Below, piece after piece: positions 4,907-28,918 of a stretch of DNA of 34,363 bases. The DNA is from Ruminiclostridium sp. GTDB lineage: Bacteria; Bacillota; Clostridia; Oscillospirales; Ruminococcaceae. Where the stretch lies: the NCBI GenBank assembly GCA_017479645.1, contig JAFVBZ010000254.1:1-34363 (forward strand), read 5' to 3'. Position 1 is the stretch's first letter; every line of letters begins with the position of its first letter. The notes beneath the pieces are model-generated. The model did no database searches. It saw nothing but the letters and a program-made list of their open reading frames with translations, and was not told the origin of the DNA. The position numbers were made by a program, and so were the translations under genes.

Positions 4907-6061
4907 TTACTCTTTATACGCGTCAGCCACCGCTTTTGCCACGGTATCCGCTACCCGCTTGTCAAGCGGGCTCGCGATGATGTTCTCCGGGGTTATCTCA
5001 TTATCCGGGATAATCGACGCAATAGCATAAGCCGCCGCGCGCTTCATTTCCTCGGTTATGCGTTTTGCCTGCACTGAAAGAGCGCCCTTGAACAGTCCGG
5101 GGAACACAAGGACGTTGTTTATCTGATTCGGGAAGTCGCTTCTGCCTGTGCCGACGATGAACGCACCGGCTTCCTTTGCCTTGTCGGGCATTATCTCCGG
5201 TGTCGGATTCGCCATTGCGAATACGATCGGCTTTTCTGCCATGCTCTGCACCATTTCTTCCGAAACGAGGTCAGGGCGGGAAACGCCGATGAACGCGTCC
5301 GCGCCTTTCATTGCGTCGGCGAGCTTACCCTTGCGACAGTTCTTGTTTGACTTGTTCTTTATGTCTTCATGAGCGGGATTGTCATAGCTGTCATCGCGGT
5401 TGATTATGCCGCAGAGATCTACCATTATCAGATCACCTATGCCGAGACTGAGCAGGAATGTGCCAATCGCGATGCCTGCCGCACCTGCGCCGTTTATTAC
5501 GACTGTCATATCCGAAAGCTTCTTGCCGGCGCACTTTGCCGCGTTTATCAGCGCCGCGCCGACTACGACCGCAGTTCCGTGCTGATCGTCGTGGAATACC
5601 GGGATATCCAGCTTCTCTTTCAGCTTCCGCTCGATCTCGAAACAGCGCGGAGCCGCGATATCTTCAAGGTTGATGCCGCCGAAGCTGTCGGACAGCAGTT
5701 CTATCGTATGAACGATCTCGTCAACGTCCTTGCTCTTTATGCAGAGCGGGAATGCGTCAACCCCCGCGAACTCCTTGAACAGGCAGCATTTTCCCTCCAT
5801 TACCGGCATACCGGCAAGTCCGCCGATATCTCCGAGACCGAGCACCGCCGTACCGTCGGTAATAACTGCGACAATGTTCTTTCTGCGGGTGAGCTTGTAT
5901 GACAGCGACGGGTCTTTCCGGATCTCAAGGCAAGCCTGCGCAACGCCGGGAGTATATGCGAGGGACAGATCCTCTCTTGTATTTATCGGCGCACGGGAAA
6001 TGACCTCGATCTTACCCTGCCATTCGTAGTGCTTCTTGAGTGCTTCTTCTTTGATATCCAC
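4907..6061 (-). CDS. NAD(P)-dependent malic enzyme (oxaloacetate-decarboxylating type)
   Basis: It converts malate to pyruvate and CO2 with reduction of NAD(P), in the cytoplasm. It has 384 residues, typical of the short bacterial form without a phosphotransacetylase domain. The N-terminal malic domain has the Tyr in [11 protein letters not shown], the [15 protein letters not shown] segment, and [12 protein letters not shown] with metal-binding Asp residues. The Rossmann part has [17 protein letters not shown] and later [10 protein letters not shown] and [16 protein letters not shown]. The start is a GTG at 6061-6059. An in-frame TGA lies two codons upstream, so no earlier start is possible, and AAAAAAGG directly abuts the GTG with no spacing. 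The heptamer end of the four-helix-bundle cassette begins 10 bases upstream, so its original leader may have been displaced. Confidence 0.95.
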
Positions 6062-6070
6062 CTTTTTTCA

Positions 6071-6121
6071 ATGCACAATGCACAATTCACAATGCACAAT
6101 TATGGTATCGCCTTCGGCGAT
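6071..6121 (-). repeat. Left end of the cassette: four heptamers plus hairpin
   Basis: Units ATGCACA, ATGCACA, ATTCACA, ATGCACA occupy 6071-6098. ATTATGG follows, then the hairpin ATCGCC-TTC-GGCGAT at 6107-6121. It is the inverted counterpart of 6526-6573. The same unit type occurs as a solo tract at 17846-17873. Confidence 0.8.
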
Positions 6122-6161
6122 GATCATAAAAGGGTAAATTGACTATCGTGCTTCTCCTTTC

Positions 6162-6518
6162 TCACTTCTGTTCAAAAATCCTTTTAACTATTGCAGTCAA
6201 GATCCTGATGATCTCCTTGCAATCGTTGTAAATACTTTCATAATGTTCTTTTTCTATATAATCGGTTTTATATAAAAGTTCGAGCCAATACTCGGTCTCA
6301 CATGCTTCTTTCAGAGCAATGTTCATTTTTGCTCCGAAATCCGCTCTGCTCTGTCCTCTTATTGCTTCCCTGACATTTGCACCTATGCTTGTTCCGCTGC
6401 GAAGGATCTGCTTTGACATAACATATTCACTTTTTTCAGCGCACAAATACTTATACAGATTAACGATCCGCACAGCAAATTCCATACTTTTTTCAACAAT
6501 AATGTTATTATCCGTCAT
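6162..6518 (-). CDS. Four-helix-bundle protein, 23S rRNA intervening-sequence (S23/IVP) family
   Basis: 118 residues, the full length for this family. Recognisable features are the N-terminal SMEFAVRIVNLYKYL helix, the conserved QILRSGTSIGANVREAIRGQS segment around residues 40-62, KMNIALKEACETEYWLELL, and a C-terminal IIRILTAIVKRIF helix. Family members were first found in intervening sequences of 23S rRNA genes and are structurally related to the accessory protein (Avd) of diversity-generating retroelements. No reverse transcriptase or rRNA is nearby. There is no clear ribosome binding site before the ATG at 6518, because the cassette hairpin lies there. It points the same way as the PHP and malic enzyme genes and is wholly inside the inverted-repeat cassette. 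A basic, nucleic-acid-binding role is plausible, but the actual function is unknown. Confidence 0.9.
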   Translation of the reverse strand: MTDNNIIVEKSMEFAVRIVNLYKYLCAEKSEYVMSKQILRSGTSIGANVREAIRGQSRADFGAKMNIALKEACETEYWLELLYKTDYIEKEHYESIYNDCKEIIRILTAIVKRIFEQK

Positions 6519-6525
6519 TCAAATA

Positions 6526-6573
6526 AGCGCGAAGCGCCTCCATAATTGTGAATTGTGCATTGTGAATTGTGCA
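6526..6573 (+). repeat. Right end of the cassette: hairpin plus four heptamers
   Basis: Hairpin GCGC-GAA-GCGC at 6527-6537, then CCATAA, then TTGTGAA, TTGTGCA, TTGTGAA, TTGTGCA at 6546-6573. It ends two bases before the TGA stop of the PHP gene (6577-6575). It is inverted relative to 6071-6121. Confidence 0.8.
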
Positions 6574-6574
6574 T

Positions 6575-7429
6575 TCACACATTAAGGTGTTCTCCGCGGG
6601 TGATGATCGCTCTCACCGACTGCTCCGGGGTGAACTTATAGCCGAGGGAGATAGCATAGTGATTGTAGAAGCCGTGGAAATCAGAACCTCCCGTCGGCAG
6701 CAGTCCGTACTGCTGGCACATATCGAGAAGCTGCTCTTCCTCGGTCTCGTCGGCGCTCTCGTGATAGACCTCGATGCCGTCGATCTTGCCCTGCGCGGCA
6801 AGCTCCTCGATAAGCTCGAAGCTGTTATACACTTTCGGGTGCGCGATAACGGCAGTACCGCCTGCGGAACGTATAAGCTCCAAAGCAAAGCGCACATCCG
6901 GATTGTGTTCCGTCTCCTTGCGAACTTCTTCTGCGCAGAGACCGGTCTGTGCATTGAACAGCTTGTCATACACATCGCCGTACAGGTCTGTGGTATATCC
7001 ATAGTCCATGAGTGCGTGCATTATATGGCACTTGTATATCGTCTTTCCTCCGGCTGCATATCGCAGAATGTTCTCGAAAGCGATCGGGTACTGTTCAATG
7101 ACCTTCAGCGCCATTTCCTTGCCCCTGCGCTTTCTTGCCTCTGTGGTGCGCAGGCAGAGCCCTTCGAGTCTGTCCGGCTTATGGGGCATATAGCAGAGGA
7201 TATGCACCTTTCTGCCGCGTGTGCCGTCAACGGCGGATATCTCCACAGCCGGCAGCACTCTGATGCCGTAACGCTGACCGAGTATCACAGCGCGGGCGGT
7301 AGATGCAAGGCTGTCGTGATCGGTTATCGAGAGAACGTCGATATTGTTGCGCTTAGCCTGCGCTATGACTTCCTCGATACCGAGTGAACCGTTCGATAAA
7401 GTGGTGTGACAATGTAAATCTGCTCTCAT
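6575..7429 (-). CDS. PHP-domain phosphoesterase
   Basis: 284 residues from the ATG at 7429, which has AGGAG 8 bases upstream and places the PHP motif at the N-terminus. Metal-ligand motifs of the polymerase/histidinol phosphatase (PHP) superfamily are all present: DLHCHT (His6, His8), ITDHDS, PAVEIS, the histidine in AVIAHPKVY, and GSDFHG near residue 260. The layout matches stand-alone YciV/TrpH-like enzymes, which act as metal-dependent 5' exonucleases or nucleotide (3',5'-bisphosphate) phosphatases. The exact substrate cannot be told from sequence. It lies about 110 bases downstream of the DUF624 gene. Its TGA stop falls in the 4-bp repeat bordering the four-helix-bundle cassette. Confidence 0.92.
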   Translation of the reverse strand: MRADLHCHTTLSNGSLGIEEVIAQAKRNNIDVLSITDHDSLASTARAVILGQRYGIRVLPAVEISAVDGTRGRKVHILCYMPHKPDRLEGLCLRTTEARKRRGKEMALKVIEQYPIAFENILRYAAGGKTIYKCHIMHALMDYGYTTDLYGDVYDKLFNAQTGLCAEEVRKETEHNPDVRFALELIRSAGGTAVIAHPKVYNSFELIEELAAQGKIDGIEVYHESADETEEEQLLDMCQQYGLLPTGGSDFHGFYNHYAISLGYKFTPEQSVRAIITRGEHLNV

Positions 7430-17755: not shown

Positions 17756-17807
17756 ATGTCTTTTACACTTAATTAATATCTATCCATAGACAAAACCAAA
17801 TAATTTT

Positions 17808-17873
17808 GTCACGATTCAGATATGCTCACAGAGCGCGATCCACAATTGTGCATTGTGCATTGTGAATTGTGCA
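17808..17873 (-). repeat. Solo heptamer element beside the transketolase stop
   Basis: Contains GTCACGATTCAGATATG (17808-17824) and then four units TTGTGCA, TTGTGCA, TTGTGAA, TTGTGCA at 17846-17873, with the palindrome CACAATTGTG at 17841-17850. A closely similar 17-mer (GTCACGATTCTGATTTG, 1150-1166) lies upstream of the heptamer tract at 1259-1279. No partner end or gene lies between here and the HU terminator, so this is a solo copy. Confidence 0.65.
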
Positions 17874-17878
17874 TTTAT

Positions 17879-18808
17879 CTATAGAGCGGCTTTTACTGTC
17901 GCAGTAATGTTCTCTGCGGAAAGACCAAACTCCTTCAGAAGCGCAACAGCCGGTCCGGAATGACCGAAAACGTCCTTTACGCCGATCTTGATGACCGGCA
18001 CGGGGTAAGTCTCCGTAACTACGGAAGCTACTGCGGAACCAAGTCCGCCTATAACGCTGTGCTCCTCGACAGTAACGATCCTGCCTGTCTCACGGGCTGC
18101 CTTCTCGATTATCTCGCGGTCAATGGGCTTGATCGTGTGTATGTTGATGATGCGCGCATCGATCCCCTGCTCCGCAAGAGCCTTGCCTGCCTCGATAGCC
18201 TCGGCGACCATAAGTCCGGTAGCGATAATTGTGATATCCTTGCCGTCCTTTACCGTAACGCCCTTGCCCACTTCAAACCTGTATGTGTCGGGATCGTTGA
18301 ATACCGGTACAGCAAGACGTCCGAAGCGCATATATGTAGGACCCTTGTAGTCAGCCATCGCAAGGACTGCCGCAGTAGCTTCAACATGGTCAGCGGGGTT
18401 GATCACCGTCATATTCGGTATTACCGACATAAGCGCGATATCCTCGCAGCACTGGTGAGAAGCGCCGTCCTCGCCTACCGAGATCCCCGCGTGTGTAGCG
18501 CCGATCTTGACGTTAAGATTCGGATAGCCTATGCTGTTGCGGACGATCTCGAATGCACGTCCGGAAGCGAACATTGCGAACGAGCTTGCGAAAACAAGCT
18601 TTCCGGTAGTTGCGATACCTGCCGCAACGCCCATCATATTGGCTTCCGCGATACCGCAGTCGAAATGCTTTTCGGGATAAGCCTTCTTGAAAATACCGGT
18701 CTTTGTTGCAGCCGCAAGGTCAGCGTCAAGCACAACAAGATCGGGACGTATCTCGGCGAGCTTGCAGAGAGCTTCGCCGTAGCTTTCGCGTGTTGCTTTC
18801 TTATCCAT
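17879..18808 (-). CDS. Transketolase, C-terminal subunit
   Basis: The second half of a split transketolase. It carries the pyrimidine-binding (PYR) and C-terminal domains, 309 residues. Signatures are VVLDADLAAATKT, HFDCGIAEANMMGVAAGIA with the catalytic Glu that activates thiamine diphosphate, VKIGATHAGISVGEDGASHQ, and VTVEEHSVIGGLGSAVA in the C-domain. AAGGAG precedes the ATG, 17 bases after the partner gene. With it, the enzyme exchanges two-carbon units in the non-oxidative pentose phosphate pathway in the cytoplasm. It ends at a TAG five bases from a heptamer repeat tract and is the last gene of the long minus-strand run. Confidence 0.96.
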   Translation of the reverse strand: MDKKATRESYGEALCKLAEIRPDLVVLDADLAAATKTGIFKKAYPEKHFDCGIAEANMMGVAAGIATTGKLVFASSFAMFASGRAFEIVRNSIGYPNLNVKIGATHAGISVGEDGASHQCCEDIALMSVIPNMTVINPADHVEATAAVLAMADYKGPTYMRFGRLAVPVFNDPDTYRFEVGKGVTVKDGKDITIIATGLMVAEAIEAGKALAEQGIDARIINIHTIKPIDREIIEKAARETGRIVTVEEHSVIGGLGSAVASVVTETYPVPVIKIGVKDVFGHSGPAVALLKEFGLSAENITATVKAAL

Positions 18809-28810: not shown

Positions 28811-28883
28811 TCAATCCGTCCTCCACAGTGGATCGGGGCAGTACCGCCTTTCAAAAATGTGAGCGAAGCGAACACCGCAATTA

Positions 28884-28918
28884 TTCATTCTTCACTATTC
28901 ACTGTTCATTATTCATTA
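28884..28918. repeat. Heptamer tract (TTCAYTN x5) abutting the mutL stop codon
   Basis: Five tandem 7-mers TTCATTC, TTCACTA, TTCACTG, TTCATTA, TTCATTA. The last one ends exactly at the base before the TAG stop of mutL (28921-28919). A GAGCGAAGCG stretch lies just to its left, with the same GAAG centre as the hairpin of the cassette ends. Related in design to 1259-1279. Confidence 0.65.

Follow-up and report, generated by a model that had tools for sequence, protein, structure and literature searches.

The sequence at positions 6067-6577 of the window (the whole stretch of DNA analysed, 34,363 nucleotides from Ruminiclostridium sp.) is probably a free-standing S23 intervening-sequence element, located outside rRNA, slowly mobile and with ends that pair in RNA. 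Its kinship with the S23 intervening sequences follows from the agreement of gene, ends and heptamers. The cassette sits between a PHP-domain gene and a malic enzyme gene and not in 23S rRNA, and we therefore regard it as a new variant. S23 genes are known mainly as inserts in rRNA. Their association with arrays of seven-base repeats extends well beyond this locus, and points to a mobile element that is widespread and has gone unnoticed.

Structure of the S23 cassette

A sequence-only reading of the window had described a cassette with one S23 gene, each end of which is made up of four heptamers, CCATAA and a hairpin, and direct reading confirmed this arrangement. The left heptamer array (6071-6098, minus strand) adjoins the malic enzyme gene. 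Its four plus-strand units are ATGCACA, one of them in the form ATTCACA (TGTGCAT and TGTGAAT on the minus strand). The array is followed, in phase with the heptamers, by the spacer CCATAAT (6099-6105, minus strand; ATTATGG on the plus strand) and, on direct reading, by the hairpin ATCGCC-TTC-GGCGAT (6107-6121). Among the related arms the stem sequence varies, but pairing is kept. On the other side, the hairpin GCGC-GAA-GCGC (6527-6537) and the spacer CCATAAT (6540-6546, plus strand), both also read directly, precede four TGTGMAT units (6547-6574, plus strand), which form an inverted copy of the left array and abut the PHP stop codon. A repeat search detected the two ends as an inverted repeat of 36 nt, 92% complementary, pairing 6070-6105 with 6540-6575. 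The flanking PHP-domain and malic enzyme genes lie on the same strand, with PHP upstream.

The gene between the hairpins (6162-6518, minus strand) encodes a 23S rRNA intervening-sequence (S23) protein of 118 aa, a four-helix bundle. In a profile search the protein matched PF05635 (E 4.4e-32) and also TIGR02436. Its predicted model matched the Avd-like four-helix-bundle fold, with a score only slightly above those of unrelated bundles. A search of the genome of origin (G000, 96% complete) revealed no S23 paralogue besides the window gene, and by reading no reverse transcriptase accompanied by template and variable repeats was apparent inside the cassette. No Rfam family matched window positions 5900-6700. 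Three Rfam matches in eight loci of the same genome were all below the gathering score, and were taken as chance.

Empty sites between the PHP and malic enzyme genes

Of 72 genomes of the genus, 61 gave a malic enzyme match, and 30 of those 61 loci were read; in 27 of the 30 a PHP gene was present within 1.5 kb upstream. The S23 cassette was present in two of these 27 loci, those of G000 and its sister G059, and absent from 25; in 13 of the 25, PHP and malic enzyme are no more than 54 bp apart. Because so many loci lack the cassette, about half of them with a short spacer, it is best read as an insertion, and the best explanation is that it inserted between the two same-strand genes in an ancestor of the two sister species. 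These empty alleles support the earlier proposal of an insertion element built round an S23 gene. The outcomes held to speak against it, a site that is always occupied and other S23 genes without such ends, both failed to occur, as 25 of the 27 sites are empty and arrays are found elsewhere.

The two occupied loci differ by one base over window positions 6064-6604, in surroundings that are about 95% identical and mosaic. The near-identity could mean either that the element was exchanged recently or that it changes slowly. In G000 the malic enzyme start beside the insertion (6050-6061) is GTG, with no clear Shine-Dalgarno sequence; by eye, malic enzyme in the relatives mostly starts with ATG and has a Shine-Dalgarno sequence. 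In another species (L102, in G007) the PHP-malic spacer contains a solo arm whose heptamer (ATTGATA/ATTGACA) and hairpin are different, and which represents a separate, independent hit in this spacer.

Heptamer arrays beside other S23 genes

Other S23 loci were scored for tandem repeats with periods of 4-13. The named loci are the best 80 of 585 confirmed S23 loci, ranked by similarity to the window S23; their titles name Clostridia, Bacteroidetes groups, Fibrobacter, Ignavibacteriae, Verrucomicrobia, Lentisphaeria, Epsilonproteobacteria and Propionigenium. On a relaxed score, 79 of these 80 loci had 7 as the strictly best period, a figure that, given how they were chosen, describes that clade. 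The same was true of all 10 plasmid S23 loci, which come from ten of 25 plasmid records (Treponema, cyanobacteria, Chloroflexota and Bacteroidota), but of only 19 of 29 S23 loci from relatives, the ten others being S23 genes more distant from that of the window. Period 7 was strictly best in 26 of 141 and 3 of 20 control windows, which are themselves rich in heptamer arrays. The locus L033, near-identical to that of the window, was included in the 30-locus count below and kept out of the period, inverted-match, flank-repeat and neighbour/heptamer counts.

Strict arrays gave the same picture. In 30 S23 loci from the genome of origin and related genomes, 23 strict period-7 arrays lay near the gene and 2 elsewhere, and there were no strict arrays at periods 5-6 or 8-13. 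Within about 300 bp of S23, 106 strict period-7 arrays were found in 62 of the best 80 loci; this corresponds to 106 arrays in 73 kb near the gene versus 47 in 388 kb farther out, an enrichment of about 12-fold. The only other periods between 4 and 21 seen near S23 in these 80 loci were multiples of 7, plus one period-17 array. Period 7 was still the best in 17 of the 18 S23 loci lacking strict arrays. All 18 were also scanned for an rRNA site, and only tRNAs were seen (L187, L246).

Arrays were present on both sides of the gene in 67 of 109 S23 loci. The two sides shared an inverted 7-mer in 63 of the 67 and a direct 7-mer in 3; the inverted-match rate for array pairs drawn from different loci was 9%. 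The median array length was 4.8 units, with a mode of 5. Among 94 loci (of 119) that were usable there were 54 canonical heptamers, and heptamer distance correlated weakly with S23 protein distance (Mantel r 0.21, p 0.0004, 80 thinned loci). The length of the array unit is fixed and its sequence is free to change. Of the hairpin-heptamer ends seen in the window, the heptamer array is the trait shared generally; the array-adjacent hairpin belongs to the family in this genome and to some others.

Polymerase slippage is given in PMC4692102 as a hypothesis for heptamer excess; on such a view the arrays would be simple-sequence repeats unlinked to S23. Slippage does not account for an enrichment at S23 that is limited to period 7 and its multiples and reaches about 12-fold in strict arrays, or for the inverted matching of the two sides. 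Slippage alone is strongly disfavoured by both observations, and we consider it extremely improbable.

Several of the more distant S23 genes (L047, L048, L049, L050, L053, L058 and L060) adjoin strings of different hairpins that, by eye, are set apart by a short spacer of constant form, for example AGCTAAAT or CTTCATT. These strings are perhaps another type of end.

Dispersed copies of the cassette ends

The cassette heptamer, counted in threes with up to 2 mismatches and with overlapping registers included, occurs 198 times in the 3.3-Mb genome of origin. The backward pattern was not found (0 occurrences), so the heptamers are present far beyond chance expectation. From 108 overlapping loci we obtained 87 distinct arms, in a genome with a single S23 gene. 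A hairpin of the GCGCGC type is present in 65 of the 87. Most of these belong to a repeat of about 150 bp, here called class A, that has its own outer inverted ends and one array; both outer motifs were recognised in 41 arms, and the 5' one in 53. A 6-bp Watson-Crick stem lies just before the array in 63 of the 87 arms, although these are not 63 independent events, and nine different stem sequences are represented; such a stem was found in 9 of 3500 shuffled segments. The hairpin is therefore kept as a structure.

Besides the S23 cassette, nine inverted pairs of 182-273 bp (overlaps merged) have the same ends and no S23 gene (class B). In place of one of them (L137), the sister genome G059 has 16 bp, with flanks 96-97% identical, and the element is missing also from the other relatives' aligned loci that were inspected. 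A second class B element (L134) is common to G000 and G059, and only a short scar is kept in G034 and G058. These pairs support the idea of non-autonomous relatives, one of them being absent from the sister genome. The scar at a class B site in G034 and G058 (L283, L284) holds parts of both arrays, and is perhaps an excision or deletion footprint.

The window itself also holds one class A copy and two solo arms. The class A copy at 17767-17885, with a hairpin and four TTGTGMA units (array 17845-17873), is situated beside an HU-like gene. A solo arm at 1140-1279, with a degenerate GTCACGATTC motif, a complex hairpin and other heptamers (ATTATTC), matches part of the L134 element. Another solo arm, at 28862-28918, consists of a GAA-loop hairpin followed by ATTATTC and ACTGTTC heptamers.

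Cognate heptamers in related genomes

Three heptamers were counted in 72 genomes of the genus, and each was most abundant where an S23 element carries it. Triplets of TTGTGMA were most numerous in G000 (185), G059 (130) and G021 (44), the three in which the S23 element is known to have TTGTGMA, and 58 of the 72 genomes had none. Similarly, TTATGMA peaked in G023 (57) and TAACTGT in G060 (101), each genome carrying the respective heptamer at S23; the next counts were 9 for TTATGMA (G009) and 15 for TAACTGT (G007). In G027 all 6 TTATGMA hits are inside its own S23 element. These counts suggest mobility that depends on the S23 protein.

The matching of S23 to heptamer across genomes is strong and non-exclusive. 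The S23 search covered 61 of the 72 genomes, G100-G110 being outside it. TTGTGMA had 21 hits in G034, although the S23 element there has another heptamer, and 14 in G108, outside the S23 search. A TTGTCAA-type family, which came to light as the backward control for TAACTGT, is abundant in G101, G020, G027, G041 and G008. It reaches 406 hits in G101, outside the S23 search, and 214 in G020, whose S23 has another heptamer, with no known matching S23 in either. Remnants of elements since lost, or some other driver, have to be considered.

Single-strand transposition with hairpin ends and without target duplication is a trait of the IS200/IS605 elements. The hairpins beside the ends, and the lack of a visible target duplication, would fit such a process, and one Y1_Tnp gene is present in G000. 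The ends might therefore be used in trans by a conventional transposase (of the Y1 type, as in IS200/IS605 or REP-associated elements, or a DDE enzyme), with S23 as a passenger. However, Y1_Tnp was not found in G059, G021, G023 or G060 (completeness 79%, 98%, 97% and 86%), four of the five genomes richest in cognate arrays, and a passenger role leaves unexplained why arrays of differing sequence lie beside S23 in many phyla. Y1 transposase as a necessary factor is disfavoured by its absence from these high-copy genomes, and we consider the transposase explanation as a whole unlikely.

Flanking sequences and signs of movement

The presence of TTCA directly outside each end had been taken as a possible direct repeat. 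The right copy (6574-6577), which includes the PHP stop codon (6575-6577), does touch its array in the TTGTGMA register, but the left copy (6067-6070) is one base away from that register, and in a symmetric register the two sides share only TCA. Among 65 S23 loci, direct repeats outside the inverted arrays followed the same distribution as cross-locus comparisons, with one 14-bp exception. The 4-bp TTCA consequently carries no weight, and as a target duplication it is no better than chance. The test showed no excess of flanking duplications in these loci, repeats of 4 bp or less being beyond its resolution. The exception, and the sole clear flanking duplication among the 65 loci, is a 14-bp direct repeat, CACACGCGGATATG, that flanks the S23 element of L045 (1469-1500 and 1880-1900 region) beside a tRNA-Leu gene.

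No near-identical S23 elements were found at two different sites among ten similar pairs. The flank shared by the members of a pair was at least 1.7 kb in nine of them and 586 bp in the tenth (L056/L059). Recent jumps of the S23-containing form itself are therefore without support.

Orientation and predicted RNA pairing

The strand of the neighbouring genes, taken crudely as that of the longest open frame, was scored in 82 of 90 loci, eight having been dropped for short flanks or lack of a frame. Both neighbours were on the same strand as S23 in 56 loci and both on the opposite strand in 9 (p 2e-9 for 56 versus 9). In the predicted fold of the cassette RNA the arrays are paired, at -145.9 kcal/mol compared with -115.1 in shuffles (z -4.9). 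Array identity was at least equal to far-flank identity in seven of seven orthologous pairs. The arrays of L192 and L205 are identical at 65 of 65 positions against 0.82 in the far flank; those of L212 and L229 match at 64 of 72 against 0.85, with the same unit position altered on both sides.

The sense bias, the predicted pairing of the arrays and the retention in orthologues, together with RNase III cutting in Coxiella, would also suit a cassette that is now immobile, in which S23 and its arrays form a host or selfish RNA-processing unit with an RNase III-type stem and descend vertically. The empty sites at the PHP-malic locus, the S23-less copies present or absent between sister genomes and the genome-wide expansion of the same heptamer argue against this explanation, which we regard as improbable. 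The data better fit a selfish S23 element that lies outside rRNA and spreads at a low rate, with S23 the likely specificity factor.

In such an element the two arrays of the transcript would, by analogy, base-pair as a stem of about 30 bp, with the S23 frame enclosed in its loop. It would resemble the stem of the 23S rRNA element in Coxiella that RNase III cuts. The S23 protein, which has five chains in solved relatives, may recognise 7-nt arrays of about five units as RNA or single-stranded DNA, and so help in trans to spread DNA bearing its own heptamer. For integration, Y1 transposase looks dispensable; by analogy with Avd, a reverse transcriptase acting in trans is a candidate partner.

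A bolder proposal, which we offer tentatively as possible though doubtful, is that S23 is the core of pan-bacterial mobile elements. Their sole protein, a small pentameric four-helix bundle, would read its own heptamer code in RNA or single-stranded DNA, at about five units per ring, and would spread heptamer-ended fold-back DNA without a known recombinase. Copies in rRNA would be the intervening sequences, and much of the heptamer excess would be debris.

Relation to known elements and repeats

The inverted ends of the Drosophila fold-back (FB) elements are made of short tandem repeats; FB elements differ from the window cassette in being eukaryotic, in their larger units and in having no S23.

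The closest described element is the Coxiella intervening sequence, which, in the part of the paper available, has three to four tandem heptamers, terminal inverted repeats forming a stem, a sporadic distribution and RNase III cutting at the first heptamer (Warrier 2016, PMC4990558). It shares with the window cassette a sense S23 frame, stem-able terminal inverted repeats and tandem heptamers. As far as described there, it lies in helix 45 of 23S rRNA, whereas the window cassette lies between protein genes, has arrays at both ends and is accompanied by many S23-less copies in the genome. The available text reports heptamers for Coxiella only; where S23 intervening sequences come from and what they do was, by its account, still unclear more than 25 years after they were discovered (PMC4990558). 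Among the papers listed in searches of the open-licence PubMed Central literature, we saw none that connects S23 genes with heptamer arrays beyond Coxiella, and none that reports an S23-array association across phyla or its link to heptamer excess. An article on a MITE with a minisatellite (PMC4596501) contains no S23 or heptamer term. Another close system is Avd of the diversity-generating retroelements (4DWL, 8UB7, 8UB8).

The GGGAATC repeats of Xanthomonas and GGGGA(C/T)T repeats of Nostoc (Rehm 2015, PMC4692102) resemble the window arrays in that, in the portion available, they are intergenic seven-base units, mostly four per array; 70-75 inverted heptamer pairs per genome are given there for Xanthomonas. 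No link to S23 was made, and the term is absent from the text of PMC4692102. The TAACTGA repeats of Beggiatoaceae, cyanobacteria and Bacteroidetes (MacGregor 2015, PMC4679880) are likewise, in the available part, dispersed heptamer arrays near start codons with a patchy distribution. They were read as possible regulatory sites, and that part does not mention S23.

S23 elements may help to explain why seven-letter repeats are common in bacteria. Linking the S23 intervening sequences with the heptamer excess makes both testable, through the flanks of XCC0516 of X. campestris, S23 binding and new array sites. Should S23 turn out to mobilise DNA, it would differ as a mobility protein from the familiar recombinases, and would be a simple relation of the machine formed by Avd and reverse transcriptase.

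Some plasmid S23 genes have neighbours of note. On cyanobacterial plasmids, S23 with heptamer arrays lies between cas2 and cas1 on the opposite strand (L253, L255) and between csx2 and cas1 (L257). Two other plasmid S23 genes (L256, L258) lie between a helicase-related gene and a DNA methyltransferase gene. The distribution of XisH/XisI is described as similar to that of the TAACTGA repeats in the available part of MacGregor's paper (PMC4679880). On Nostoc plasmids (L252, L254), S23 directly precedes XisH/XisI genes and a site-specific integrase.
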